From contig JASBUS010000020.1 in assembly GCA_030147745.1 (NCBI GenBank), positions 1 through 55,025 of the forward strand: a stretch of DNA of 55,025 nucleotides. Reading direction: 5' to 3'. Shown here in pieces: positions 2,631 to 43,729 of this stretch. Positions within the stretch are counted from its first letter, which is position 1, and every line of letters starts with the position of its first letter. This stretch comes from Alphaproteobacteria bacterium. Its GTDB lineage: Bacteria; Pseudomonadota; Alphaproteobacteria; Micavibrionales; Micavibrionaceae. The notes below the pieces were generated by a model that saw only the letters and a program-made list of their open reading frames with translations, did no database searches and had not been told where the DNA came from. The position numbers and the translations under genes are program-made.

Positions 2631-3350
2631 CTATTCAATGCGCTCCATTGTCCAGCTTTCGATTATGCCACCATCAGCGCCTTTGGTGGATGGGCTGCGG
2701 CCAACGCGCATTTTGACCTGCATAACAATCGTATGCTCACTCGCGTTTTTACGGGCATTTTTACCCGTATAACGGAAAGTAATTTTCACAGGAAAGTCAA
2801 ATAACCAACGATATACGCCTTCAAAATTGCCTTTGTTAATAACGACAGGCATTTCATCAAACATTGCGACGCTGACCAAACCATTTTGGCGCATGGCTTT
2901 GACAATGTCAGATTTATTCATTTCGTTGACATATTGGATCAGCGCTGGGCGTTCAAACAGGCCTTGATATTTATTAATATGGTCCTGCGCTGTTTTATAA
3001 TCAAAGCTCATTAAATTCGTGACAACAATTTGCACCCACTCACTCATTTGCGCATCTGTGCGGTGCGGTTTAGATAAAATATTCCCGTCCTTAGAGCCTG
3101 TTAATTCCTGATCATATAAAAACATCAGCGAATTTTTATTTTTCTTAGTGGTTGGCGCATCAATCTGACCATCTGTAGCAAATGGTGCTTCTAATGTTTC
3201 ATGTGGCTTTAACTTGCCATCATCTTCCTTGGCAAATACACCTTTGATTTTATCGATCGGGCTTTGTGCCGATGCCGATATCGCGCCAAAGCATAATGCG
3301 CCTGCCGTGAATAATAATAATGCTGATTTATGTTGGATAAATTTACGCAT
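2631..3350 (-). CDS. IcmL/DotI-like periplasmic protein
   Basis: About 239 residues with an N-terminal hydrophobic segment ending ISASAQS, a good signal peptidase I site. The mature C-terminal half resembles the periplasmic domain of IcmL/DotI: a helical stretch near residues 103-150, then GVYRWLFDFPVKITFRY, reminiscent of the GxYxWxxxxPxxxTY block of that family, and a final beta strand with GRSPST...IESW. IcmL/DotI is an inner-membrane VirB8-like component of type IVB secretion systems and normally keeps its membrane anchor; here a cleavable signal seems likelier. No other dot/icm gene is in the window. It lies 15 bases downstream of coq9 on the same strand. Fold assignment is from recall of the family, not a search. 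Confidence 0.5.
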   Translation of the reverse strand: MRKFIQHKSALLLFTAGALCFGAISASAQSPIDKIKGVFAKEDDGKLKPHETLEAPFATDGQIDAPTTKKNKNSLMFLYDQELTGSKDGNILSKPHRTDAQMSEWVQIVVTNLMSFDYKTAQDHINKYQGLFERPALIQYVNEMNKSDIVKAMRQNGLVSVAMFDEMPVVINKGNFEGVYRWLFDFPVKITFRYTGKNARKNASEHTIVMQVKMRVGRSPSTKGADGGIIESWTMERIE

Positions 3351-4101: not shown

Positions 4102-5478
4102 ATGGATATGTGGCCAGAAGTGATGAGTGAATATAAAGACAATACCAATATTGCCAAACGTGGCCTGCGCTATGGTCGCGTATCAGCGACTATGGCGGGT
4201 TTAGGGGCGCGTTTAGCAGCAGATAAATTCCTCGGCCTAAAAATTGATCAACCAAAACATGCGGAACAATTAACTGCAGCGCTCGGTAATCTTAAAGGGC
4301 CATTGATGAAGGTTGGCCAAATTTTGGCGACCATCCCTGAAGCCCTGCCGGCTGAATATGCGCAGGCCTTCCAAAGTTTACAATCCGAAGCGCCATCCAT
4401 GGGCTGGCCTTTTGTCAAACGCCGTATGCGTACCGAGCTTGGCACAGATTGGCAAAGTAAATTTGAAGATTTCGGACAAAGCGCAAGCGCCGCGGCGTCC
4501 CTTGGGCAAGTCCATAAAGCACGCCTTCATGACGGGCGTGATGTTGCCTGTAAATTGCAATATCCAGATATGCGCGCCGCGATTGAAGCCGATTTAAAAC
4601 AGCTTAAAATGATTTTCTCAATTTATGAGCGCTACGATAAAGCAATCTCGACTGTTAATGTTCATCATGAGCTTGCTGAACGCCTTTATGAAGAATTAGA
4701 TTACGAATTAGAAGCCAAGCATATGCAGCTTTATCGCTATATGCTGCGTGATGAACCAAATGTCCATGTCCCTGAAGTGGTTGAATCGCATTCAAGCGAC
4801 CGCCTGTTAACCGCGACATGGCTTGACGGCGATAAAATCATGAATTTTATTGATGCGGATACAGAAATTCGTAATCAAATTGCGCTGAATATGTTTAAGG
4901 CGTGGTATATCCCGCTTTATTATTACGGCATTATTCATGGTGACCCGCATTTGGGCAATTACACCATCCGCGAAGATTTAAGCATTAACCTGTTGGATTT
5001 TGGCTGCGTACGTATTTTCCCAGCGCGCTTTGTGCAGGGCTCGGTCGATTTATATCACGCTTTAATGACCCAAGATAAAGACCTTGCCGTGCATGCCTTC
5101 GAAAGCTGGGGCTTCCATAATTTAAGCGATGAACATATCGAAATATTAAGTGTCTGGGCAGGCTTCCTCTACGGCCCATTAATGGAAGATAAGATCCGCC
5201 CAATTGGTGAAGTAACCAATGGCGTTTATGGCCGCGAAACAGCTGAAAAAGTTCATAAACGCCTGAGTGAAATTGGCGGCATCACTATTCCGCGTGAATT
5301 TGTTTTCATGGATCGCGCCGCGCTGGGGTTAGGGTCGGTCTTCCTCCACCTCAAAGCGGAAGTAAATTGGTATCGCATTTTCAATGAAATGATTGACGGC
5401 TTTAGTGCAGACCAACTGAAACAAAACCAAGACGCTGCGCTTGCTAAGTTTGAATTAGATAACAAACACGCTGAATAA
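4102..5478 (+). CDS. ubiB: ABC1/UbiB/COQ8 family atypical kinase
   Basis: UbiB/COQ8/ADCK proteins are atypical protein-kinase-like ATPases needed for ubiquinone synthesis, probably assisting the membrane biosynthetic complex. Visible motifs are the family signature KVGQ near residue 70, the Ala-rich loop that replaces the glycine loop (SAAASLGQVHKA, about 129-140), the lysine in VACKLQYPD near 151, the catalytic-loop-like HGDPHLGNY near 279 and LDFG near 298. At 458 residues it lacks the C-terminal membrane helices of E. coli UbiB and is closer to the COQ8/ADCK3 type. In-frame ATGs at 4102, 4108 and 4123 leave the exact start uncertain. Divergent from coq9. Confidence 0.9.
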   Translation: MDMWPEVMSEYKDNTNIAKRGLRYGRVSATMAGLGARLAADKFLGLKIDQPKHAEQLTAALGNLKGPLMKVGQILATIPEALPAEYAQAFQSLQSEAPSMGWPFVKRRMRTELGTDWQSKFEDFGQSASAAASLGQVHKARLHDGRDVACKLQYPDMRAAIEADLKQLKMIFSIYERYDKAISTVNVHHELAERLYEELDYELEAKHMQLYRYMLRDEPNVHVPEVVESHSSDRLLTATWLDGDKIMNFIDADTEIRNQIALNMFKAWYIPLYYYGIIHGDPHLGNYTIREDLSINLLDFGCVRIFPARFVQGSVDLYHALMTQDKDLAVHAFESWGFHNLSDEHIEILSVWAGFLYGPLMEDKIRPIGEVTNGVYGRETAEKVHKRLSEIGGITIPREFVFMDRAALGLGSVFLHLKAEVNWYRIFNEMIDGFSADQLKQNQDAALAKFELDNKHAE

Positions 5479-9891: not shown

Positions 9892-10039
9892 GTTTTATCC
9901 TTTTTAAATTCTGTCTTCTTTTTTAGCATATTATTGCCGTGCTCGCATGCGAAAATATAATTTTTATGAAAAATATTTGCTTTTTAGGTTATTTTATTTT
10001 AAAAAATTCAGAAATATAAAAATAATAAGATACAGGGCA

Positions 10040-10681
10040 ATGAATTTAAAAAATTTTCTCATTGGTAAAACACCAATATATATCCAATTTTTTCGCGGTT
10101 GCATACTCGGTATGGGTTTAAGTGCGGCCGCTTATACCTCTCTTCAGTTTCTTCCTGGTGAAGACCTTTCTGATGGCGATAAACAAAGTCTAACTGATGT
10201 TTTTAATGATAGCATTAATATTGATGATATCAACTATCATCGTTCACCTTTTGGCAATAAACTCCTGCGTTTCTTTGGCGCTGATGGTGTAACTGTGGGT
10301 AATACGGTTATTACAAATTATAAATATTCTAAAGGCACTGATGTTTATAAATATGTTTTAATCCATGAAGCTGCGCATATTTGGCAAAATCAGAATTGTC
10401 CGTTTAATATATTCAATAATCTAGGTGATGAAATTCGTAATGCTTTTTCAGAACAGATCGATATGTATAAATATCATCTAGATGACAGCAAAGATTTACG
10501 TGATTACAACCACGAACAGCAAGCTAGCATCATAGCTGATTATTTTATGCCTCATATTGGCGCAAGCTTTGGCCTTGTTAAAAATAAATTTTCGTCTGAT
10601 GCTGAAAAACAAGCTGTATATGATGCCGTGATGAAAAACTTCCTGAACGACCCGAAATACATACAGAAACACTGTTTATAA
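10040..10681 (+). CDS. Putative HExxH metallopeptidase-fold protein, copy 1
   Basis: About 213 residues. An N-terminal hydrophobic segment (FRGCILGMGLSAAAYTSLQFL) is probably a membrane anchor or uncleaved signal. A region resembling Vgr-related/eCIS-core (DUF4157-like) proteins follows: LSDGDKQSLTDVFNDSINIDDINYHRS, then VLIHEAAHIWQNQNC with an intact HExxH zinc site near residue 112, and later RDYNHEQQASIIADYF. The start at 10040 is chosen because it aligns with the paralogue's start; a longer frame from 9947 would add an AT-rich, Lys/Phe/Tyr-rich leader that looks non-coding. The ribosome site is weak. It lies 88 bases upstream of its paralogue. Substrate unknown; protease activity is inferred only from the motif. 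Confidence 0.65.
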   Translation: MNLKNFLIGKTPIYIQFFRGCILGMGLSAAAYTSLQFLPGEDLSDGDKQSLTDVFNDSINIDDINYHRSPFGNKLLRFFGADGVTVGNTVITNYKYSKGTDVYKYVLIHEAAHIWQNQNCPFNIFNNLGDEIRNAFSEQIDMYKYHLDDSKDLRDYNHEQQASIIADYFMPHIGASFGLVKNKFSSDAEKQAVYDAVMKNFLNDPKYIQKHCL

Positions 10682-10769
10682 TGCGCTTAAGCAAAAATCT
10701 TGACGGCTCACCTAAAAATATATATGTTATGTAAATTATTTTATGGGAGATAAAAGGGGAGCCCAGAAA

Positions 10770-11477
10770 ATGCTCAGTCAGATTTTTAGCAAAGATGCAT
10801 CAAAATCAATCAAAGCTTTACGCTATGCCGCCTATACGGCGCTTGGGCTTTATGGCGCATCACTCACATTTGAATATGCGACAGAAGCTGATTTTAGCCC
10901 TGAGCAGGAACAAACCCTGAAGGCCGTTTTTCAAGATAGTTTGGATATAGACGCCATCACTTATCGTAAATCAAAAGTCACGGATTATTTAATTGAACAA
11001 AATGGCGCAGAAGCATTTGCACTGGGCAATGACATGCAAATTCACACGCGATTTTATGAACAAAAAGACCCTTATAATATGAAATCATGGTTATTCCTGC
11101 ATGAATCAACCCATATTTGGCAGCATCAAAATTGCCATACGCCCGCGCCACATTTCTTATATGCTATGGCACATGACCTTTATATGTTGCACTGGGGAAA
11201 TGACAACGGCGAAGAACATCAAAATGTTTCGTATTTCTATCGTTTAACGGCGGATCGTGATTTGGCTGATTATAACCGTGAACAACAGGCAAGCCTTGTT
11301 GCCGATTACTTCCGCATAAAAAATGGTGGCTATCCCGTTTATCTCCACTTTAACCAAAACTATAAACGCGATATGCATTTATATGAATCTGTCATGGCGA
11401 AATTTTTGAAAGACCCAAGCTATATTCGCGAAAATTGCACGAATATTCTCTATTTCGATGCGAAAGCTGGATTATAA
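10770..11477 (+). CDS. Putative HExxH metallopeptidase-fold protein, copy 2
   Basis: About 235 residues and clearly paralogous to the preceding gene. It has an N-terminal hydrophobic segment (YAAYTALGLYGASLTF), FSPEQEQTLKAVFQDSLDIDAITYRKS, LFLHESTHIWQHQNC (intact HExxH near residue 114), then LADYNREQQASLVADYF. A conserved Cys follows the HExxH helix in both copies and another lies near the C-terminus (RENC here, QKHC in copy 1), so a disulfide is plausible. The start at 10770 has AGGGGAG eight bases upstream; the ATG at 10743 precedes that site. It contains an extra segment after the motif relative to copy 1. It ends two bases before the convergent rho stop codon. Confidence 0.7.
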   Translation: MLSQIFSKDASKSIKALRYAAYTALGLYGASLTFEYATEADFSPEQEQTLKAVFQDSLDIDAITYRKSKVTDYLIEQNGAEAFALGNDMQIHTRFYEQKDPYNMKSWLFLHESTHIWQHQNCHTPAPHFLYAMAHDLYMLHWGNDNGEEHQNVSYFYRLTADRDLADYNREQQASLVADYFRIKNGGYPVYLHFNQNYKRDMHLYESVMAKFLKDPSYIRENCTNILYFDAKAGL

Positions 11478-19802: not shown

Positions 19803-20828
19803 TTAATCTGCACGTATGATTTTTAATGCTTGCTCGACATGTGCGATTGGCGTGTCTTTATGAATGCCATGACCCAAATTGAAAATATAAGGTTTTTCGC
19901 CCAATGTATCACAAATATTTTTAACTTCACGGTCAAGCAAAGCGCCGCCTGCATATAAAATACCAGGGTCTAAATTCCCTTGGACAGGCATGATGGTTTG
20001 TAGTTCATCGCGAATATAATTTAGCGGCAAAGTGAAATCACAGCCCAGCGCATCAATGCCCGTTTTATGCATGTAATCTTTCAGATAAATTCCTGCCGCT
20101 TTCGGGAAACCGATAATCGGAATATGCGGATGAACGGCTTTCACTTTAGCAATAATTTTCTGATTGGCTTCAATCACATATTTTTCGAAGGCGAAACCAC
20201 CAACAGCGCCTGCCCAGCTTTCAAAAAGCTGTAACACTTCAGCGCCAGCTTCAACCTGTCTGATTAAATATTGAGCGGTGGCCTCAATCAATAAATTCAT
20301 CAAACGATCGAATTCTTGCGGTTGTCCATAAAGGAATTTCTTAAATTGCATGAAGTCCTTTGTACCGCGCCCTTCAATCATGTAGGTTGCTACGGTTAAT
20401 GGCGCACCTGCAAAACCGATCAAGGTGGTATCGGTGAAATTCTCTGCAATTAACGCTGAACGAATTTGGCCAATTGCCGCATAAACGGGGGCAAGGTGAT
20501 CATGCAAATGATCTAAGCTAAGCTGATCAAGATTTAGATCTTCGAGTCTTGGGCCTTCGCCAGTTTCGAAGCGGACTTTTTGTCCTAAGGCATCAGGGAT
20601 AACCAAGATGTCTGAAAACAAAATCGCTGCATCAAAACCGAATCGTCTGATCGGCTGTAATGTAACTTCTGTTGCGTAATCGGGCGTATAACACATGGTC
20701 AGGAAATCACCTGCTTTAGCACGTAATTCCCTGTATTCTGGTAGATAACGTCCGGCCTGACGCATAAACCAGATAGGTGGTTTATCCGTGTTAACCTTTT
20801 GTAAAGTTTTTAGCATTAGCTTTGTCAT
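19803..20828 (-). CDS. hemE: Uroporphyrinogen decarboxylase
   Basis: Decarboxylates the four acetate side chains of uroporphyrinogen III to give coproporphyrinogen III. The N-terminal signature PPIWFMRQAGRYLPEYRE begins about residue 15. The mid motif GFAGAPLTVATYMIEG and the C-terminal FNLGHGIHKDTPIAHVEQAL are intact. About 341 residues from ATG 20828 (20816 would give 337). The open frame runs on to 20954, but that extension is AT-rich, unlike the family, and runs through origin elements, so it is rejected. No good ribosome site is visible. Position next to the origin matches Caulobacter and Rickettsia as I recall them. Confidence 0.95.
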   Translation of the reverse strand: MTKLMLKTLQKVNTDKPPIWFMRQAGRYLPEYRELRAKAGDFLTMCYTPDYATEVTLQPIRRFGFDAAILFSDILVIPDALGQKVRFETGEGPRLEDLNLDQLSLDHLHDHLAPVYAAIGQIRSALIAENFTDTTLIGFAGAPLTVATYMIEGRGTKDFMQFKKFLYGQPQEFDRLMNLLIEATAQYLIRQVEAGAEVLQLFESWAGAVGGFAFEKYVIEANQKIIAKVKAVHPHIPIIGFPKAAGIYLKDYMHKTGIDALGCDFTLPLNYIRDELQTIMPVQGNLDPGILYAGGALLDREVKNICDTLGEKPYIFNLGHGIHKDTPIAHVEQALKIIRAD

Positions 20829-21214
20829 GAACACAAACATAGAAGAAAACAAAAAAAAATAAATATATAATTTATAGGTATTTGTTATTTGTAGGGGGTG
20901 TGAGTCATGGGGATAGAATCTTATGCACGATTCTGTCCACAACTCGTCATACAAAGCGAATCCGAAAGTTTTAAAGGATCACGTTTTTTGCTGATCAAAT
21001 TACCCATATCGTGATTTTGATGTTATTCACTATGGAGAAGTCACTAAACAACTTGTACCGATTTTGGGTATAAGTTTTGTACACAGAGTTATCCACCCAG
21101 TTATGAAGAATTTAATCACAATTTTACGCACACAATCTATACGTTGTATGTATTAGTAAATTTCTATATATTTTTAGGCGATAAATGAATTAACTTTCTT
21201 AAAGATACAGGCTG
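20829..21214. other. Candidate chromosomal replication origin (oriC)
   Basis: Intergenic region of 386 bases between divergent hemE and the 21215 gene. It carries near-consensus DnaA boxes (TTATNCACA): TTATGCACG 20921, TTATTCACT 21023, TTGTACACA 21077, TTATCCACC 21089, TTAATCACA 21112, TTACGCACA 21124, each one mismatch and all on the plus strand. A weaker CTGTCCACA is at 20933. An A/T-only stretch near 20846-20878 could be the unwinding element. An IHF-like AATCACAATTTTA (one mismatch) overlaps at 21114-21126. The hemE neighbour is that of the Caulobacter origin. Gene orientation diverges here. Functional proof is absent. Confidence 0.7.
21023..21132 (+). promoter_or_regulatory. DnaA-box cluster of candidate oriC
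   Basis: Five 9-mers within 110 bases, each one base away from TTATNCACA and all in the same orientation: 21023-21031, 21077-21085, 21089-21097, 21112-21120, 21124-21132. Spacing between the last four starts is 12, 23 and 12 bases, close to one and two helical turns. Confidence 0.6.
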
Positions 21215-21835: not shown

Positions 21836-22116
21836 CGCAAAAAATTTTCAACTTATAAAAGAATCAAAAATTAACATTAGGAAAGAGGGATGTATAAAAA
21901 CGCCCCCTATTTTCATAATGCGTTAACTTATTGCAAAAATTAGCTATTTCTTTTCATAAAACCCGATTTTTTATGGTTTTTTCTGCATTTTGGTAGGAAA
22001 GAATTAACACTCTCACCGCATAATTGACTCATATGCCGATCAATTCGGCGTTGTGGGTTTAAAAATTATTGTGAGTGGCTTTAAGCCAAAAAAGAAAAAA
22101 GAAGTGGTTGGGTTCC

Positions 22117-23349
22117 ATGTCCGTAGAAAATGAAAACAGCATTGAAATTGTAATTGCACCTAAAAAGGATTGCGTAGTGTCTTATACACTTAATAACGCG
22201 CAGCCGGTGCGTTCGACACATATTGGCAATCAGCCTCTATTTTATATGGAGTTTGAAGATCACTATGAAGAAGAAGAAAACTTTATGGAGTCTTTCTCTG
22301 AAGAATTAGGCAATTTTAATCCTGAATTTATGAATGTTACACAAGGTCTTAATAAATATGATGTTGTGTCAAAACACTTCACAAAGGATGCCAGCTGGCG
22401 TGAAAAGCTGTTGTCAGAAAATATTGATGACTTAACAGGCTGTACAAATACAAAGCTTAATTTGGATGATGTCCTCGCATTAATGCAAAAAAGCCGTAGC
22501 TTTGCCGCACATTACGAATTTGCCTTGGAAAAAGGTGTAAAAGTTGAACTTAGCAATGCCTGTAGCTCAAGCGAGTTTATTCGTTCATCAAAGATCATTT
22601 TGATTAATGAAGCGATTAGCACAGAAGACGCGGCATTGGTTTTGGCGAAAGAAGTACGTTCGTTCTGGCAAAAAGAACATGGTACCCAAATTAATCCATT
22701 AAATTTCCACCCTGATCAGGCGATTGTAATTAATCGTGCACAAATTGCCGATTTGAGCGTCTTTATGGTTCGCGTTGGTTGGGAACTGCAATTGGCGGAT
22801 GAAAAAACGCTATGGAATTATATTGAACATTCATCACTGGCAGATATTGGCCGTGCCTATGCACGCGAAGCCTGCGCAGACTTTAGAACAATTAATAATG
22901 GTGAAGCCGCACAAGCTGCGTTTGAATCATGGTTCTTGTCTGAGCGTTGCCGCCGCGCCGATAAAATTTTGATCCAGCAAATGCTGTCAGAATATAACGG
23001 TTATGTCTTTGGTGAAGATTCTGCCGCCTCTAAAGCAGTCGCTTTTGACCTACTTTCGAAGCTTGGTGCCTATGAGTTCGGCAAAAATTACCTTCAACCA
23101 TATGCCAATGTCATTTTGAATGACCCTGTTTTTACCGAGGTACGTGACCGTTCGAACGCGAATTTCCTTTGGTTTATTAAGTTTGAGCGCTCTTTCAAAG
23201 AAGCGGAACAGGAATTGCAATCCTCTGGCGCGACGAAAAATTCGGGTTTACAGGAAAAGCAAAATGACACAGCAGAAAATGTCTACTTCATCAATGACGG
23301 GTCAGATGAAGAGCAGAATAAAGTTATTCAATTTAGACCAAAGCAGTGA
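22117..23349 (+). CDS. DUF6782-like protein, copy 1
   Basis: About 410 residues. Residues 120-310 resemble the alphaproteobacterial DUF6782 putative metallopeptidase family as I recall it: FALEKGVKVELSN, a KIILINEAIS strand, then the helix ALVLAKEVRSFWQ near 175, where an AHExRHxWQ-like motif would be expected, followed by PLNFHPDQAIVINRAQIADLSVFMVRVGWEL and a helical tail. The His residues of the expected zinc motif are replaced, so catalysis is doubtful. An acidic N-terminal region and a C-terminal tail VIQFRPKQ flank it. Start: ATG 22117 (GTG 22075 possible); neither has a strong ribosome site. The preceding 280 bases hold only a small GCCGA/TCGGC inverted repeat (22035-22049). Paralogous to the next gene. 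Confidence 0.65.
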   Translation: MSVENENSIEIVIAPKKDCVVSYTLNNAQPVRSTHIGNQPLFYMEFEDHYEEEENFMESFSEELGNFNPEFMNVTQGLNKYDVVSKHFTKDASWREKLLSENIDDLTGCTNTKLNLDDVLALMQKSRSFAAHYEFALEKGVKVELSNACSSSEFIRSSKIILINEAISTEDAALVLAKEVRSFWQKEHGTQINPLNFHPDQAIVINRAQIADLSVFMVRVGWELQLADEKTLWNYIEHSSLADIGRAYAREACADFRTINNGEAAQAAFESWFLSERCRRADKILIQQMLSEYNGYVFGEDSAASKAVAFDLLSKLGAYEFGKNYLQPYANVILNDPVFTEVRDRSNANFLWFIKFERSFKEAEQELQSSGATKNSGLQEKQNDTAENVYFINDGSDEEQNKVIQFRPKQ

Positions 23350-23365
23350 TTTGGAGTTAGACTAT

Positions 23366-24481
23366 ATGCAGAATTCAGATGATGACATTCACAACGTAAA
23401 TCAAGGATCGACAACATCCTTCGATTTCGAGGAATGTTATGATCTAACTGTACAAGATTATTCAGTTGATAGCGCCGTGTCTTTATATACACATAGCAAT
23501 GATATTGATGTGATTGATTGTACAACTATTCCGCATATTGATCTGCGTGAAGTTTTGGCTGATGTTGCTGATTTTGAATTGGATGACGTTGAGCATTTAC
23601 AGCAAGACATTAAATGTTACGAAGATGTTGCCTATTGGGCGAGCGCGTTGTTGTTGCAAAGTGCAACAGGCGCACGTTTGCTAAAAAGCGCCGCTGATTA
23701 TGATTGGGCGCTGGGCTTTGATGATTTAGATGACAATGGCTGGGTTCTTGATAACCAAGACTATATTGCCTGCATCAATAAAGCGCAGATCAAAGTTGAT
23801 TCATTAGGCCGTTCACCATTTTTCCTGAACACAATTCTATGTGACCTTATTCGTGCGCAGCGTGATATCTGGCTTGAAGAGCGTAACGAGATTGATTACG
23901 CCGATCATCATCCAGAAACAGTTTTAAAAGTTGAGCGTATGCGCGCGGCGGATATTGAATCTTTGGTGATTCAAGTGGCGTGGGAATTGCGCAGCATTGG
24001 TTATGCAAGCCTATGGCGTCATCTGCTTGGTTCAGATATTGGCGATATGGCGATTTTATTTTCACGTTTCATGGAACGTGACCCTGCATCATTATTTGAT
24101 GGCAGCGCTTTGTTGGTTGCGTTCAAACAATGGTATGCCGATGAAGACCGTATCAATTTGATTGATCGTGTGGCGCTTGAAATTTGTGATGATATTTTGT
24201 TTACATCAACTGAAATGAAGCGCGTTTTTAAACAAAAGACTTTGGCCGATAAAAGCCTCTATGAATTTTTTGCCTTGCCAGAAGGTCGCCCATATTTAGC
24301 GCCAATTATGCAAGAAATTCTCCGTAGTCCTTATTTCGCAGCGATGCAAAACCCAATTAACGAAGCGCATCTTTATCATATTTTACGTGATTTGGAAGTT
24401 TGTTATGTTGGTAACGTGCCGTTTCGTGATCCAGTCCTTGCCGATAAGATTTTTCCTGATTACACTAAAATCCTTAAATAA
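23366..24481 (+). CDS. DUF6782-like protein, copy 2
   Basis: About 371 residues and paralogous to the preceding protein. The shared core includes PETVLKVERMRAADIESLVIQVAWELRSIGYASLWRHLLGSDIGDMA and a following GSALLVAFKQWYADEDRINLIDR. The helix aligned with the presumed zinc motif reads LCDLIRAQRDIWLEE, again without HExxH. The N-terminal 90 residues are acidic and Asp-rich. ATG 23366 has GGAG nine bases upstream and lies 16 bases after the previous stop. An alternative ATG at 23264, with AGGA eight bases upstream, would overlap the previous gene by 86 bases. Next comes aroE, 26 bases away, so an operon through coaE is plausible. Confidence 0.65.
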   Translation: MQNSDDDIHNVNQGSTTSFDFEECYDLTVQDYSVDSAVSLYTHSNDIDVIDCTTIPHIDLREVLADVADFELDDVEHLQQDIKCYEDVAYWASALLLQSATGARLLKSAADYDWALGFDDLDDNGWVLDNQDYIACINKAQIKVDSLGRSPFFLNTILCDLIRAQRDIWLEERNEIDYADHHPETVLKVERMRAADIESLVIQVAWELRSIGYASLWRHLLGSDIGDMAILFSRFMERDPASLFDGSALLVAFKQWYADEDRINLIDRVALEICDDILFTSTEMKRVFKQKTLADKSLYEFFALPEGRPYLAPIMQEILRSPYFAAMQNPINEAHLYHILRDLEVCYVGNVPFRDPVLADKIFPDYTKILK

Positions 24482-36745: not shown

Positions 36746-37663
36746 TTATGCAGCTTGTGATAGGCGGTGAACAATCTCATCAAGTTGATCATAATTTTTG
36801 AACTTGATTTTAACTTCGCCGCTTTGGCCTGATTTAAGATCAACTTTAACCTCTAGGCCAAGCTTGTTGCTGATTTCTTCTTCTAATGCCAATGTGTCAG
36901 CAGATTTCGCAGATTTTTTCTCTTTCGCGGCCCTGTCTTCACTGGTTGTGTAGTTGGTCTTTGTTTCTTTTGCGAGGCGCTCTGTCTCACGCACTGATAA
37001 ACCTTGATTAACAACCTTTTTCGCTAGTTCATGTGGGTTTTCAGCTGTAATTAGCGCGCGGGCATGACCTGCTGTTAAGCTGCCATCATTGACATAGGCC
37101 TGTACATTGTCTGGAAGCGATAAAAGTCGCAGTGTGTTGGCGATATGTGAACGGCTTTTACCAATCACGGCAGCCAATTTACCTTGTGTATGGCCAAATT
37201 GATCAATCAGGCGCTGATAACCTTCGGCTTCTTCAAGTGCATTGAGGTCTTCACGCTGTAAGTTTTCAATCAAGGCAATTTCAAGCGCTTCATCATCGCT
37301 CATTTGTGCTAGAATTACTGGAACTTCATGAATTTGTGCAATTTGCGCTGCGCGCCAGCGGCGTTCACCGGCGATGATTTCAAAGCGATCATCATTATCA
37401 TTGAGGCTACGCACTAAAATCGGCTGTAAAATGCCGTGTGTAGAAATAGACTCAGCAAGCTGTTTAAGCGCTTCCTGGTCAAAATGACGACGCGGCTGGA
37501 ATTGACCCGGTTGAAGCTGTTCGATGGATATTTCCATGCGCGTAAGCCCTGGTGTATGGCCAAATTCATCAGCCTGCGGGTATACACCCTCTTCATCTTC
37601 AAATAAGGCGGATAAACCACGACCTAGGCCACGTTTGCTTGCTGTTTTATCGTCTTGATCCAT
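36746..37663 (-). CDS. parB: Chromosome partitioning protein ParB (CTPase)
   Basis: Binds parS and spreads as a CTP-dependent clamp to organise the origin region. KRGLGRGLSALFEDEE at the N-terminus (ParA-activating basic motif), ISIEQLQPGQFQPRRHFDQEAL near residue 47, GERRWRAAQIA near 103 (CTP-binding GERRxRA box), the helix-turn-helix TQGKLAAVIGKSRSHIANTLRLL near 155, and a C-terminal dimerisation region. 305 residues. It follows parA by 36 bases. Three perfect parS sites lie 1.3-5.2 kb away. Confidence 0.97.
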   Translation of the reverse strand: MDQDDKTASKRGLGRGLSALFEDEEGVYPQADEFGHTPGLTRMEISIEQLQPGQFQPRRHFDQEALKQLAESISTHGILQPILVRSLNDNDDRFEIIAGERRWRAAQIAQIHEVPVILAQMSDDEALEIALIENLQREDLNALEEAEGYQRLIDQFGHTQGKLAAVIGKSRSHIANTLRLLSLPDNVQAYVNDGSLTAGHARALITAENPHELAKKVVNQGLSVRETERLAKETKTNYTTSEDRAAKEKKSAKSADTLALEEEISNKLGLEVKVDLKSGQSGEVKIKFKNYDQLDEIVHRLSQAA

Positions 37664-37699: not shown

Positions 37700-38569
37700 T
37701 TAAGCAATTTGTTGTTCTTGTGGGGCCATGAATTTCTTCTCACGACGCAAGATTTCACCAGCAAGCTGGATGTAAGCATGCGCACCTGGGCTCTTCATGT
37801 CATAGATAATCGCAGGCAAGCCGTAAGACGGCGCTTCTGAAAGGCGCACATTGCGTGGAATAACGGTTTTGTAAACAGTATCACCAAAATATTCACGGAC
37901 ATCGTCAGCGACCATAGAAGAGAGGTTGTTACGCTTGTCGAACATGGTGAGTAGAACGCCATGTATATTCAAGTTCGGGTTATAAGTGCGTTTGACGCGC
38001 TCAATTGTTTTTGTTAACTGCGATAGACCTTCAAGCGCATAAAACTCACACTGTAAAGGCACAATAACCGAATCAACCGCGACAAATGTGTTAAGGGTCA
38101 GTAGGTTTAGTGATGGTGGGCAATCAACAATCACATAATCAAACGGTAACGGCTTACGCAGCGCTTCACGTAGGCGGAATTCGCGGCGTTCAGCGGTAAC
38201 AAGTTCAATTTCAGCACCTGAAAGGTGGATGGATGATGGGAGAACGTATAAGCCTGGTACTTTTGTTGCCACAGCGGAATCTTCAGGATTGGCATCACCA
38301 AAGAGCAAGTCATATGAACTTTTACGAATGGCGCTACGACGCACACCTAGACCTGTTGATGCGTTGCCTTGTGGGTCTAGGTCAATAAGCAATACAGATT
38401 TACCGACAGCACAAAGCGCGGTCGCCAAGTTAATGGCCGTTGTTGTTTTGCCAACGCCACCTTTTTGGTTGGCAATAGCGAGTAAGCGTGGAATTTTCGG
38501 CGTGTTGCTTTTTTTTGCAAGCTTCGGGCGACGGAGAAAAACTTTTGGCAAGTTGTTTTTTTTGTCCAT
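37700..38569 (-). CDS. parA: Chromosome partitioning ATPase ParA
   Basis: Deviant-Walker ATPase that moves ParB-parS complexes. An N-terminal basic extension of about 27 residues precedes LLAIANQKGGVGKTTTAINLA, with KGGVGKT at 36-42. Later come LLIDLDPQGNASTG near 59, YVIVDCPPSLNLLTLN near 136 and RNVRLSEAPSYGLPAIIYD near 240. 289 residues. It lies upstream of parB and 114 bases downstream of rsmG on the same strand, the standard gidA-gidB-parA-parB order. Confidence 0.97.
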   Translation of the reverse strand: MDKKNNLPKVFLRRPKLAKKSNTPKIPRLLAIANQKGGVGKTTTAINLATALCAVGKSVLLIDLDPQGNASTGLGVRRSAIRKSSYDLLFGDANPEDSAVATKVPGLYVLPSSIHLSGAEIELVTAERREFRLREALRKPLPFDYVIVDCPPSLNLLTLNTFVAVDSVIVPLQCEFYALEGLSQLTKTIERVKRTYNPNLNIHGVLLTMFDKRNNLSSMVADDVREYFGDTVYKTVIPRNVRLSEAPSYGLPAIIYDMKSPGAHAYIQLAGEILRREKKFMAPQEQQIA

Positions 38570-38683: not shown

Positions 38684-39301
38684 TTACGCTGTACGCTTTT
38701 GTAGTTTATGCACAATGATCACATAACTTTCTTCGCTGACAATTGACGGCTGTACTTCGTAAGAAAAGTCATAATTTTTAAGGGCTGCGGCAATTTCGTC
38801 TTCGGCTGTACGCCCTTTTGGAAAAAGGAGCGTTAGGGCTGGATTTTCGTGAGCCCAGTGTAAGCACCAACCAAGTAATGTATCGAGATCCGCAAGGGCG
38901 CGTGCGGTGATCACATCAGGCGCAGGCAGGTTTGTTTCTTCGATGCGCTTGTTTTCAATTTGCGTTTTTATGCCTGTTTCACGTGAAACAGTCGCCAAGA
39001 AACTACATTTTTTGCGATCCGATTCGACCAATGTCACATCGATCTGTGGCGCAGCGATAGCCAGAACCATACCCGGAAACCCGCCGCCACTGCCGAGGTC
39101 GTAAAGGGTTTTTGTGCCTTCAGGAATATGCGAAAGAATTTGCAGCGAATCAATGAAGTGGCGCTGCTCTGAATCTTTCAGTGTCGACGGGCTAACAATA
39201 TTGATGGCTTTTTGCCACTTGTGTAGCAAAGCATCATATTGTGCAAGCTGTGAATCTGTTTCACGTGAAACATTTATGGCCGTATGGGAAATAAAAGTCA
39301 T
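38684..39301 (-). CDS. rsmG: 16S rRNA (guanine527-N7) methyltransferase RsmG
   Basis: SAM-dependent methyltransferase for 16S rRNA G527 (GidB). Family landmarks: WQKAINIVSPSTLKDSEQRHFIDSLQIL near residue 26, YDLGSGGGFPGMVLAIAAPQIDVTLVESDRKKCSFLATV near 63 (SAM motif I DLGSGGGFPG), ITARALADLDTLL near 127 and LLFPKGRTAEDEI near 153. 205 residues from ATG 39301; the longer frame to 39388 runs into mnmG and is not used. It begins four bases after the mnmG stop. Two parS palindromes lie inside it, encoding VSRET each time. Confidence 0.95.
   Translation of the reverse strand: MTFISHTAINVSRETDSQLAQYDALLHKWQKAINIVSPSTLKDSEQRHFIDSLQILSHIPEGTKTLYDLGSGGGFPGMVLAIAAPQIDVTLVESDRKKCSFLATVSRETGIKTQIENKRIEETNLPAPDVITARALADLDTLLGWCLHWAHENPALTLLFPKGRTAEDEIAAALKNYDFSYEVQPSIVSEESYVIIVHKLQKRTA
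38975..38990. promoter_or_regulatory. parS site 1
   Basis: TGTTTCACGTGAAACA, the perfect 16-bp palindrome recognised by chromosomal ParB/Spo0J. It lies within the rsmG coding region, 1.3 kb from parB. Confidence 0.95.
39257..39272. promoter_or_regulatory. parS site 2
   Basis: Perfect TGTTTCACGTGAAACA near the 5-prime end of rsmG. Its flanks (GTGAATC before, TTT after) are nearly the same as those of parS site 3. Confidence 0.95.
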
Positions 39302-39305
39302 AAGA

Positions 39306-41171
39306 TTACGCTGCTTCTCTGCGTTTAATTTGGCGCATGATCGATACAAGCGCTGCGGGCGTAACGCCCGGTAGACGCGAAGCAGCACCGATTGTTGCAG
39401 GCTTAGAATTGTTCAATGTTTGCACAATCTCAGTTGAAAGTGAGCCAACAGCGAGATAATCAAAATCATCAGGGATTTTTAAGGCTTCGTCTTTTTTGAA
39501 GGCGATAATATCGGCCTCTTGGCGTGCGAGATAGCCTGAATATAGGGCATCAATTTCGATTTGTTCTTTGATCTCCGCATCAATATTTGCTGTTTCTGGC
39601 CAGATGGTCGCGAGCACATCCCAGTCAATATTCGGATAAGAAAGCAATTCAGCGGCGCTACGCATTTTGCCGTCATGCTTAATTTGTATGCCGTGCTGTG
39701 TTAATGCATTTGGCGAAATTTTAAGCTCTTCACACATTAATTGACGGGCAGCCTCAAGCTTTGCTGCTTTTGCTTGCCATGCTGTTTTGCGTGCATCGCT
39801 TACTGCATTAATGGCAATGGCTTTATCCGTCAGGCGTTGGTCTGCGTTATCAGCACGCAGGCGTAAACGGTATTCAGCGCGTGAAGTGAACATACGATAA
39901 GGCTCTGGCGCGCCGCGTGTGATCAAATCATCAATCATTACACCAATATAAGCTTCAGAGCGGTCAAGGATGAAGGTTTCGCCCTCACCTTTGGCTTTCA
40001 ATGCAGCATTAATGCCGGCCATAACGCCTTGTGCGCCCGCTTCTTCATAGCCTGTTGTGCCGTTAATTTGGCCAGCCATGAATAGGCTTTCGATATAGGT
40101 GGATTCTAGTGTTGGCTTTAAGGCGCGTGGATCACAATAATCATATTCAACAGCATAGCCATATTCGAAAACTTCAACATTTTCGAGGCCTTTAATGCTG
40201 CGGATTAGCGCGTCTTGTACATCAATTGGCAATGAGGTTGAGATACCATTTGGATAGACCGTATCATCATCAAGGCCTTCTGGCTCGAGGAATATCTGGT
40301 GGCGCTCTTTATCTGCAAAGCGCATAATTTTATCTTCGATAGATGGGCAGTAACGCGGGCCTTTGCTCTCAATCTGGCCTGAATATATCGGCGCGCGATG
40401 TATATTGTCACGAATGGCTGTGTGTGTTGCCGCGTTCGTGTAAGTAATATAGCAAGAGATTTGTGGTGTTGTGACCTTATCTGTCATAAATGAGAATGGG
40501 ATAGGTTCTGCATCACCCGGCTGTTCTTCACATACCGTCCAATCAATTGTTTTGCCGTTTAAACGTGCTGGTGTGCCTGTTTTTAAGCGGCCAAGCGGCA
40601 GGCCGATTTTTTCTAAAGTCTCACCTAATTTTTGCGCTGGTTTTTCGCCAATACGGCCTGCTGGGCTTTGGTCTTCACCGCGGTGAATGATGCCGCGTAA
40701 AAATGTGCCTGTAGTGAGAACGACGGCTTGAGCCTGATAGCTTTGACCATCATCGGTAATCACGCCAGTGACTTGACCGTCTTCGATAATTAAGTCGTCA
40801 ACGCCTGCTTCTATGAAGTCTAGGTTATGTTGCGCTTTGATAAGCTCTTGTACCGCGGCGCGATATAATTTGCGATCGGCTTGCGCGCGTGGCCCTTGTA
40901 CAGCGGCGCCTTTTGAGGCGTTAAGCATACGGAATTGGATGCCGCCTTTGTCAATGGCGCGGCCCATAATGCCGTCCAAAGCGTCAATTTCGCGGACGAG
41001 ATGGCCTTTACCTAAGCCGCCAATGGCAGGGTTACATGACATTACGCCAATTGTATCAATCTTATGTGTGACAAGGGCTGTGCGCGCGCCGCAGCGCGCT
41101 GCGGCTGCAGCTGCTTCTGTACCGGCATGTCCGCCGCCAATAACAATGACATCATATATAATATTTTGCAT
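39306..41171 (-). CDS. mnmG: tRNA uridine-5-carboxymethylaminomethyl modification enzyme MnmG (GidA)
   Basis: FAD-dependent partner of MnmE in modifying wobble U34. N-terminal FAD motif [20 protein letters not shown] from residue 7, [23 protein letters not shown] near 45, [14 protein letters not shown] near 150, the two-Cys-region [37 protein letters not shown] near 345, and the C-terminal helical MnmE/tRNA-binding domain ending [18 protein letters not shown]. 621 residues from ATG 41171; an in-frame ATG at 41189 is possible. It is four bases upstream of rsmG. Its mate mnmE is not adjacent. Confidence 0.97.
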
Positions 41172-41254
41172 GGCGCGTTTATACTCCATTTAATATGAAA
41201 AAGCCAGAAGATTCTGGCCTGATCAAGTTTCAAATATTCTGACTATTTTAGGGC

Positions 41255-43729
41255 TTAGTAGTTATCGCCATGGTCGCCAACAAGAATCTCTCGTTTACCG
41301 ACATGGTTGGCTGGACCAACAACGCCTTGACGTTCCATTTCCTCGATAATACGTGCGGCACGGTTATAACCGATTTGCAGATGACGCTGAATAAAGCTAG
41401 TTGAGGCACGGCGTTCACGCGCAACAATGGCTACAGCTTGATCATATAGCTCATCAACATCGCTGCCGCCTTCGCCGTCTGCATCACCGCCAAAGCCCAT
41501 ATCAAGGTCAGCTTCGGTAATCTCATCAAGATAAGCTGGCGCACCTTGTGCTTTGATATGTTTGACGACTTTTTCTACGTCTGAATCGGTTGCAAATGGG
41601 CCGTGTACACGGGTAATACGGCCGCCTGCAGCCATATAAAGCATATCACCTTGACCAAGTAATTGTTCAGCGCCGCCTTCACCCAAGATGGTACGGCTGT
41701 CAATTTTAGATGTCACAGAGAAACTGATACGTGTTGGGAAGTTTGCTTTAATTACGCCTGTAATAACGTCAACAGATGGGCGTTGTGTTGCCATGATCAG
41801 GTGGATACCCGCCGCACGTGCCATTTGCGCAAGGCGCTGAATGGCGTTTTCGACATCTTTACCTGCAACAAGCATCAAATCGGCGAACTCATCAACAACA
41901 ACGACGATATATGGCAGTTCTTCCAAATCAAGTGGTTGATCTTCATATGTTGGTTTGCCTGTTTCTGCATCAAATCCTGTTTGCACTTTACGAAGAAGAA
42001 CTTCACCTTTTTTCGCAGCCTCTGTGACGCGTTTATTATAACCATCAATGTTACGAACGCCGAGTTTTGACATCGCGCGGTAACGGTTTTCCATCTCTTG
42101 AACAACCCACTTAAGGGCGACAACGGCTTTACCTGGTTCAGTCACCACTGGTGAAAGAAGATGCGGAATATCGTCATAGACAGAAAGTTCAAGCATTTTA
42201 GGGTCGATCATTATGAAACGACATTTTTCAGGTGGTAGGCGGAAGAGCAATGACAAGATCATTGTGTTTACCGCAACGGATTTACCTGAACCTGTTGTAC
42301 CTGCAACAAGCAAGTGCGGCATTTTTGCGAGGTCAGCAACAACGGCATGGCCGCCAATATCATTGCCGAGTATAAGCGGTAAATGAGCGGAACTCTTCAC
42401 ATAGTCACGGCTTTGAAGCAAATCACGCAGATAGACGGTTTCACGTATTTTATTTGGTAATTCAATACCAATCACGTTGCGACCCGGAACGACAGCCGCA
42501 CGCACGGATACGGCAGACATGGAGCGCGCAATATCATCAGATAGGCCGATAACACGTGAAGATTTTGTCCCTGGCGCCGGTTCAAGTTCATAAAGCGTTA
42601 CAACTGGCCCAGGGTGGATCGAAACAATATCGCCTTTGACGTTAAAGTCCCCGAGGACATTTTGTAGGCTTTCTGCGTTTTCTTCTAACTGCTTTGTATC
42701 ATGCTGGCCGTTTGTTTCTGTTTTTGGAACTTCGGCGAGTAATTCAATAGATGGTAATTCCCATTCAGTATCTGAATCTAGTGCCAGTGAGATTTGCGCC
42801 GTGCTACTGCTTTCTTTTGTCATTTTCTTAGGAGTCATGACTTTGAAGGTTTTTGGCTTATCTTCTCTCTGTGAGTCTGTTTCACGTGAAACATTTTGCG
42901 GTGGATCGATGTGATCATTGACCTTAGCTACAGGTTCTGAGGCGCGTGGCTGGGGCTGTTTTTTCGCGGCAGGCTTTATCGCCTTTGGCTTATTCATTTT
43001 AGGCCATAGCGGTTTTTTAGTGGGTGCGAAGTCATCAGCTTCATCAAATGCGCCATTCTTTTTGAGCCAGTAATGGATGTTTTGTACGGCCGCTATTATG
43101 AAATAAATGATGTTTATGGCAATATTCTGCGCTTTATGCAGGATGTTGAGCCATTCTTCCTTTTGTAGCGCGGTGGCGAGGCCTGCTGTAAAGGTTGCCG
43201 CCATTAAAAAGAGGGATGGAATAATGATATGTGCAACACTTGCCCAATGGTCAGGCATAAGGCCAGTAATTTTGTTGGTAATCAACAACCCGCTGCTGCC
43301 GCCTAAATAGGCTTGATTAATTAGGCCGCCTGCTGGGAATAGCGTGAGGCCGATAGATAGGCTGATGGTCGCGAAGAGCGTGAAGGCGATGCGCGCCGCA
43401 AAATTACGAAGTGGTTTGCGTTTAAACAGGCGTAAGCCCCAAATAATCGGCAAGAGGCCGAGTATAAGCGCGCCGAAGCCAAAGCTTTGCAATAATATAT
43501 CCGCAATATTTGCGCCGAAGAGACCGCCGATATTCTCAGTATGATTACCGCTCGCGGCAATATTAAAGGATGGGTCGTTACGATTATAGGTAAACAGGGC
43601 AAGGAGAAGAAAAGCGCCTGCTGCTAAAATGCCTAAGCTTAAGCTGTCGATAATGCGTCGTGCCAGAAAGCCGTGTAGCGAATCAGGTAGAATCTGTTTT
43701 TTACTTTTTGTTGTTTTTTGACGAGCCAT
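41255..43729 (-). CDS. ftsK: DNA translocase FtsK
   Basis: Septum-anchored hexameric dsDNA pump for terminus segregation and dimer resolution. Four to five N-terminal membrane helices (about residues 20-200), a Pro/Lys/Gln linker (about 210-330), then the RecA-like motor with GTTGSGKSVAVN near 480 (Walker A) and VVVDEFADLML (Walker B). The C-terminal gamma winged helix ends IQRHLQIGYNRAARIIEEMERQGVVGPANHVGKREIL. About 824 residues from ATG 43729; a TTG two codons earlier is less likely. A parS site lies within the linker coding region. Confidence 0.97.
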   Translation of the reverse strand: MARQKTTKSKKQILPDSLHGFLARRIIDSLSLGILAAGAFLLLALFTYNRNDPSFNIAASGNHTENIGGLFGANIADILLQSFGFGALILGLLPIIWGLRLFKRKPLRNFAARIAFTLFATISLSIGLTLFPAGGLINQAYLGGSSGLLITNKITGLMPDHWASVAHIIIPSLFLMAATFTAGLATALQKEEWLNILHKAQNIAINIIYFIIAAVQNIHYWLKKNGAFDEADDFAPTKKPLWPKMNKPKAIKPAAKKQPQPRASEPVAKVNDHIDPPQNVSRETDSQREDKPKTFKVMTPKKMTKESSSTAQISLALDSDTEWELPSIELLAEVPKTETNGQHDTKQLEENAESLQNVLGDFNVKGDIVSIHPGPVVTLYELEPAPGTKSSRVIGLSDDIARSMSAVSVRAAVVPGRNVIGIELPNKIRETVYLRDLLQSRDYVKSSAHLPLILGNDIGGHAVVADLAKMPHLLVAGTTGSGKSVAVNTMILSLLFRLPPEKCRFIMIDPKMLELSVYDDIPHLLSPVVTEPGKAVVALKWVVQEMENRYRAMSKLGVRNIDGYNKRVTEAAKKGEVLLRKVQTGFDAETGKPTYEDQPLDLEELPYIVVVVDEFADLMLVAGKDVENAIQRLAQMARAAGIHLIMATQRPSVDVITGVIKANFPTRISFSVTSKIDSRTILGEGGAEQLLGQGDMLYMAAGGRITRVHGPFATDSDVEKVVKHIKAQGAPAYLDEITEADLDMGFGGDADGEGGSDVDELYDQAVAIVARERRASTSFIQRHLQIGYNRAARIIEEMERQGVVGPANHVGKREILVGDHGDNY
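42878..42893. promoter_or_regulatory. parS site 3
   Basis: Perfect TGTTTCACGTGAAACA inside the linker-coding part of ftsK, again translated as VSRET on the minus strand. The linker is poorly conserved, so the site is tolerated there easily. Confidence 0.95.

Follow-up and report, generated by a model that had tools for sequence, protein, structure and literature searches.

The origins of Caulobacter crescentus (Cori) and Rickettsia prowazekii both lie between hemE and another gene (PMC1914354), and that of Caulobacter is known to carry GANTC sites, with replication control remaining normal on deletion of ccrM (PMC3973325). As described in PMC10316083, the oriC of Thermotoga maritima has an unwinding region in which a TTATT motif occurs together with TAG repeats, besides boxes set in a row for oligomeric DnaA; the same source provides the TTGT/TTATT motif type, which is that of Escherichia coli, and the TAG motif type to which we refer below. 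The rule for the Bacillus subtilis BUS, as worded in the part of PMC8287927 on which we draw, asks for a DnaA box with two or fewer mismatches, a spacer of 16 or fewer and three or more trios with a middle A. Our literature search found no paper treating a Micavibrio replication origin.

Here, we analysed a window of 55,025 nucleotides (the whole stretch of DNA under study), which is contig C68 of the 101 contigs of a 2.39 Mb genome with a completeness of 98.6%. The sequence makes it very probable that this Micavibrio-like bacterium replicates its chromosome from a single origin, the gap between the divergent genes hemE and orfX (Table 1). The grounds are the excess of DnaA boxes and of the module described below, the conservation of the gap, the uniqueness of the module in the assembly, the switch of GC skew in relatives and the parS sites nearby. 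On box excess, skew switch, conserved module and parS proximity, the candidate oriC placed in this gap by the initial annotation is upheld; the IHF-like site that it listed found no support, and the unwinding module with its minus-strand boxes had been overlooked. The hemE-gap origin would be a DnaA-type oriC of the ordinary bacterial kind, with lineage-specific details in the DNA-opening parts and in the methylation sites. The AT content is 68.4% in the gap and 56.3% across the window.

Table 1. Features of the putative origin and its surroundings, in positions of the window.
Feature	Position	Strand	Remarks
hemE, uroporphyrinogen decarboxylase	19803-20828	-	PF01208, E 5e-109; left boundary
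Probable oriC region	20829-21214	none	Intergenic gap, hemE (-)/orfX (+); boxes, skew, module, parS
Probable DNA unwinding element	20851-20890	none	Includes A/T-only 20851-20876; low stability
Conserved module of the putative origin	20864-20942	+	AT-rich end, trio place, GC run, back-to-back boxes; model R1
DnaA-trio place GTATTTGTTATTTGTAG	20878-20894	+	One TAG plus TTGT/TTATT, no regular TAG repeat
GC run GGGGG	20894-20898	none	Between trio place and boxes
Trio-proximal DnaA box TGACTCACA	20899-20907	-	Two mismatches; order consensus TTATTCACA
Four GANTC sites	20902-20962	none	At 20902, 20916, 20929 and 20958; 61 bases of the module
Second minus-strand box CTATCCCCA	20908-20916	-	Two mismatches
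DnaA box TTATGCACG	20921-20929	+	One-mismatch scan
DnaA box CTGTCCACA	20933-20941	+	12 bp past the preceding box; TTGTCCACA in both genus mates
Single DnaA box TTATTCACT	21023-21031	+	One-mismatch scan
Minus-strand box TTATACCCA	21065-21073	-	One mismatch
Head-to-tail array of five boxes	21077-21132	+	21077, 21089, 21101 (weak, TTATGAAGA), 21112, 21124
Second AT-rich stretch, orfX side	21137-21176	none	Eighth among the listed least stable separate 40-mers of the window
orfX, 206 aa	21215-21835	+	Right boundary; no family match
parB	36746-37663	-	Pfam
parA	37700-38569	-	Pfam
Three perfect parS sites	38975-42893	none	38975, 39257, 42878; the sole perfect parS sites of the genome

Like the Caulobacter and Rickettsia origins, the gap has hemE on one flank and combines DnaA boxes with an AT-rich stretch within several hundred bases (PMC1914354). 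The length of 386 bases and the hemE assignment given initially both hold, as does the remark that a hem gene flanks the Caulobacter origin, hemE bordering Cori too (PMC1914354). Of the boundary genes that mark a Cori-type origin in that source (hemE or COG1806), hemE is the one found here; unlike in Caulobacter, the right-hand gene is orfX and not COG1806. Among the 29 genomes searched for COG1806 (PF03618), it was detected in 23, lying 3.5–8 kb from hemE in ten, and it was found neither in the genome holding the window nor in either genus mate. Also unlike Cori, as far as its published description was drawn on, the gap holds no strict CtrA site (TTAA-N7-TTAA) and IHF sites are not enriched. 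Over 74 homologous gaps and both strands, the CtrA motif occurs 16 times versus 8.5 (sd 5.1) in shuffled sequences, which is no clear enrichment. Because strict CtrA sites are absent, we do not file the locus as a Cori-type CtrA-controlled origin. The IHF-like site reported earlier is just one loose match to WATCAN5WTR, at 21114, which overlies boxes, and the stricter form WATCAANNNNTTR does not occur in the gap; the counts over the 74 homologous gaps are not above those in shuffled sequences (17 versus 18.8 for the loose form, 3 versus 4.0 for the stricter one) and give IHF sites no support as a conserved part of the origin.

The pairing of the two flanking genes extends through the relatives. 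A hemE match was obtained in 48 of 58 relatives, and after G041 (35% identity) and the second hemE of G035 had been dropped, 47 hemE loci were examined for their neighbour; orfX adjoins hemE in 46 of these 47 genomes, the exception being G017, which nevertheless carries the module. A search of named genomes for orfX, made with an alignment of 14 of the 40 orfX members, gave 89 loci. The best 80 of these bear titles such as Micavibrio sp. or Alphaproteobacteria bacterium, with isolate ARS11 (79%) and Micavibrio sp. UBA2705 (61%) having the nearest orfX sequences, which marks the source of the window as a Micavibrio-like alphaproteobacterium of probable but not exact rank. Among the 80, a set that overlaps with that of the 58 relatives, hemE is the divergent neighbour of orfX in 73. 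Of the other seven, L179, L201 and L221 carry other genes there, and the remaining four end less than 450 bases upstream. In L221, at position 4953, orfX follows a dnaN-like gene and not hemE, so that the tie of orfX to the origin is not absolute. The orfX protein of the window matches no family in Pfam or NCBIfam; over its 40 members, the best Pfam E-value is 0.046, and scattered weak NCBIfam matches appear in 14 members. No PDB entry was found by sequence. An AlphaFold2 model of the protein is confident (pLDDT 90.7); with this model, the best Foldseek match (E 0.056) missed the threshold of E 0.001, and VIA-align gave a best Z of 5.8 over 80 residues, with no clear fold match.

The six DnaA boxes of the initial annotation are real when scored on the plus strand against TTATNCACA with at most one mismatch (starts at 20921, 21023, 21077, 21089, 21112 and 21124), and they exceed chance; no perfect TTATNCACA occurs in the gap, and against the strict consensus TTATCCACA only the box at 21089 is at one mismatch. 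Counting both strands, the gap holds seven boxes; its 1000 dinucleotide shuffles average 0.87, and none of them matched the box total, the same-strand count or the presence of four boxes within 56 bases. The densest same-strand cluster in 200 bp has five boxes in the gap and three at best elsewhere in the window. The packing of four boxes into 56 bases was likewise borne out, with spacings of 12, 23 and 12, and together with the weak box between them they form a chain of five with steps of 12, 12, 11 and 12, the longest chain among 740 shuffled gaps being three. The statement that all good boxes face the same way is correct for the six, but minus-strand boxes exist as well, one at 21065 with one mismatch and two at 20899 and 20908 with two mismatches, the latter two within the most conserved part of the gap. 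Boxes are also in excess in the homologous gaps, with 150 in 46 gaps versus 25.9 shuffled (maximum 38) and 262 in 74 gaps versus 39.2 shuffled (maximum 52), these two sets overlapping and their shuffled controls treating as independent genomes that are kin. Same-strand pairs of boxes at 12 bp number 15 in the 74 gaps and are absent from all 40 shuffled sets, and chains of five boxes are seen in two of the 74.

The best-conserved part of the gap is a module of about 80 bp on the hemE side. Its consensus runs, in order, through an AT-rich stretch, AGGTTTTTG, TAG repeats, GG, CTGTGAATAA, CGGGGATAA, TTTATCC and TTTTATNCACAG, where CTGTGAATAA is a minus-strand box, CGGGGATAA a second minus-strand box and TTTTATNCACAG a plus-strand box. 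Word counts over the 74 gaps show the same elements, with TAGTAG in 37 (6.5 expected), GGGGATAA in 25 (0.8 expected) and TTATCCAC in 21 (0.3 expected). A sequence-only model, R1, was built from the modules of 56 relatives, with the window and its genus left out. In the genome holding the window, where the search scored 79 of 497 first-look candidates, R1 matches the module with 58.9 bits (E 9.6e-16), the next match being at E 0.012, and gives two faint echoes at the box array. The module is found at E 2.1e-5 or better in 46 of 58 genomes, adjoining a detected hemE in 45, while the 46th (G033) is without a hemE match; most of these 46 genomes fed R1, so that the independent test consists of the three genus members alone. 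In 12 of the 58, the module is weaker than this threshold or absent at E 1 (two of the 58 give no match), and several of these 12 genomes are incomplete or also without a hemE match. With a leave-one-out matrix, which drops one sequence and not its close kin, all 74 gaps scored above 99.5% of the shuffled controls and 72 above every control, L187 and L195 lying below the best shuffled sequence.

The A/T-only stretch noted initially is real and spans 26 bases (20851-20876) at the left end of this module. The 40-mer beginning at 20851 is the second least stable in the 55-kb window, and the least stable 40-mer lies directly left of the module in 70 of the 74 homologous gaps; the AT-rich stretch on the orfX side is not on the side favoured in relatives.

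In the order and polarity of paired boxes, GC run, trio place and AT-rich stretch, the module resembles the B. subtilis BUS (PMC8287927, PMC6669920), and most relatives of the window resemble it also in carrying TAG repeats at the trio place. Unlike the BUS, the window has one TAG, two of its boxes are two mismatches off, and extra back-to-back plus-strand boxes are present. The trios of the window module read TAT, TTG and TAG, which departs from the three-trio rule, and a run that agrees with it occurs solely at an unrelated spot of the gap; somewhere in the gap, such runs are found in 61 of the 74 gaps and in 140 of 370 shuffles. By the rule as published in the part of PMC8287927 used here, the hemE-gap origin is not a member of the BUS class. 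The module also resembles the DUE-R1 end of E. coli oriC, with an AT-rich left side, plus-strand TTGT/TTATT and then a minus-strand DnaA box (PMC10316083). The best 22-bp match of the Micavibrio consensus core in E. coli oriC falls on the R1 site there, with 16 of 22 positions (two of 2000 shuffles reach 16), a resemblance that is due in part to the shared box. E. coli oriC was rejected as a homologous module because our model finds no match there. It differs further in that IHF is without support here and GANTC takes the place of GATC. From T. maritima, as represented in PMC10316083, the locus differs in the sequence of its DnaA box and in that, within one order, some species have the one motif type and others the other.

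This alternation between species is seen at the trio place itself. At least two TAG are found there in 53 of the 74 gaps, versus 0.8% in shuffles and one TAG in the window, and TTRTT in 22 of the 74, versus 8.6% in shuffles. All three members of the genus of the window, which is one fully supported clade on the hemE tree, have no TAG repeat and carry TTGT or TTATT in its place. Over the 72 rows of this tree, at least 15 changes are needed between 51 TAG-rich and 21 TAG-poor rows. Since the trio segment is 17 bases long, acquiring one motif in part precludes having the other.

Like the Caulobacter origin (PMC3973325), the gap contains GANTC sites. In the 74 gaps they number 321 versus 103 (sd 9) in shuffled sequences, which places GANTC first among 256 motifs of the same shape, and GATC is depleted. 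The 73 named gaps have 9.8 sites per kb and their flanks 2.0 per kb, the 1533 sites in the flanks comparing with 3114 in shuffled sequences; 163 other gaps of the same loci have 2.3 per kb (63 versus 66 shuffled). The GANTC excess is specific to the origin and extends throughout the order. A GANTC site coincides with the trio-proximal box in 23 of the 74 gaps, with two expected. Of 29 genomes, 28 have a CcrM-like methylase domain (PF18755) and 27 have GcrA; the genome holding the window has both. In the 74 gaps, the GANTC positions are bunched near -7, +60 to +79, +120 and +180 to +199 from a GGGGAT anchor, that is about 60 bp apart, an arrangement that shared ancestry may explain.

We tentatively put forward a joint proposal, which as a whole we regard as possible and yet rather doubtful. 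Its first part is that the origin is tied to CcrM methylation, such that DnaA binding or melting would be impaired on hemimethylated daughters as long as CcrM has not acted on them, as a counterpart of GATC/SeqA. Its second part is that TAG and TTGT/TTATT have been exchanged repeatedly, with the genus of the window now on the TTGT/TTATT side. Counting against the role of methylation are the prior knowledge of such sites in the Caulobacter origin, the normal replication control of Caulobacter without ccrM, the general preference for GANTC between genes in this class (PMC3973325) and the GANTC-rich origins also described for repABC replicons (PMC6090056). As an alternative, the GANTC excess might be caused by GcrA-linked promoters of hemE or orfX.

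A GC-skew minimum, which the initial annotation had named as a check on its origin call, was found at the hemE gap, locally in the window and as a switch in three one-contig relatives. In the window, the skew changes from -0.028 on the left of the gap to +0.061 on its right, and it reaches its cumulative minimum 450 bases before the gap, at 20379; with 101 contigs, this minimum is local only. The one-contig relatives G024 and G026 (same family) and G051 (same order) were sampled in 20 stretches of 20 kb each, and in all three the sole switch from negative to positive is in the hemE stretch, which for G024 lies at the join of the contig ends, a circle being assumed. The skew returns to negative about half-way round, with a few stretches near zero. 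Within the hemE stretch, the cumulative minimum is 2 bases from the module in G051, about 170 in G024 and about 230 in G026. The parS cluster lies 18–22 kb from the gap here and in both genus mates, and 9–21 kb from it in the one-contig relatives; besides parA and parB, rsmG and mnmG are also near the gap.

These observations bear on the sites at which the origin might otherwise lie. As the hemE/orfX gap is divergent, promoters must lie within it, and DnaA boxes also cluster at another gene start, in the ftsA|ftsZ gap, so that the boxes could mark the divergent promoters of hemE and orfX under DnaA control, with the real origin elsewhere. The skew switch, the parS neighbourhood and the order-wide unwinding-type module nevertheless indicate an origin, and the ftsZ-side cluster has none of them; we therefore consider a mere promoter region very unlikely. 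Still less likely is an origin in the ftsA|ftsZ gap itself (G000:C93:23877-24084), where four perfect TTATNCACA in 208 bases form the densest perfect-box cluster in the list for the assembly, between frames that we take from their translations to be ftsA-like and ftsZ-like. The initial annotation had named a better DnaA-box cluster elsewhere as evidence against its call, and in terms of perfect boxes this cluster is one, but it comes without a skew switch or module: over the 120 kb fetched, the skew stays below zero for the most part and shows no switch that lasts, R1 finds no match to the origin module there, and the one-contig relatives have their switch at hemE. A DnaA-responsive ftsZ promoter is known from Caulobacter, and the C93 cluster is in our analysis best read as such a promoter region; its boxes suggest DnaA control of ftsZ. 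The cluster also holds a perfect 12-bp doublet that resembles the one of the hemE gap.

The remaining candidate site, also named initially, is dnaA. No dnaA was detected in the assembly by PF00308 or PF08299; both genus mates have the gene, as do 55 of 58 genomes. The flanks of the rpsT–dnaA locus of the genus mate G001 match C54 through to its final base and C84 from base 1 onwards, so dnaA and rpsT are missing from the assembly because the locus falls in the gap between these contigs, and a real loss of DnaA was rejected. An origin at or near dnaA, hidden in this unassembled gap, is highly improbable, because dnaA lies far from the skew switch in the three one-contig relatives (at 385 kb in G024, at 546 kb with hemE at 224 kb in G026, and at 654 kb with hemE at 2602 kb in G051) and both genus mates have the boxes and the module at hemE.

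With the origin placed in the hemE gap, a course of initiation may be proposed, in which DnaA binding, the direction of melting and the role of the array are all predicted from the sequence. DnaA would bind in two places, at the back-to-back boxes in the module beside hemE (20899-20941) and at the 12-bp array of head-to-tail boxes. A filament would start at the trio-proximal minus-strand box, run left over the GC run and reach the plus strand of the trio place. The AT-rich stretch beside hemE would then melt and helicase would be loaded there, with the array on the orfX side feeding DnaA into the unwinding complex.

The result would give an order of mostly uncultured bacteria, the predatory Micavibrio included, a mapped origin that can be recognised by a unique sequence signature. 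The module signature could locate origins in fragmented genomes and serve coverage-based estimates of growth rate, and two testable mechanistic ideas follow, one from the GANTC load and one from the way in which trio motifs are exchanged within one order.

Several other genes were noticed. The genus mate G001 has two full-length DnaA proteins that are 74% identical: one, on C10, is encoded beside rpsT and is 93% identical to the DnaA of G002, and the other, on C8, is encoded near a dnaN-like gene on the origin-carrying contig. This second copy may be a paralog or contamination; G020 and G035 also have two strong DnaA matches. To the right of the putative origin, at 22075-24481, the window contains two overlapping, apparently tandem genes for DUF6782 putative metallopeptidases (PF20573). 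At 2631-3350 lies a protein with a type IVb secretion DotI/IcmL domain (PF11393), and at 9947-11477 are two neighbouring proteins of 244 aa with the look of tandem paralogs, the first of which weakly matches the eCIS core family PF13699 (25.8 bits).
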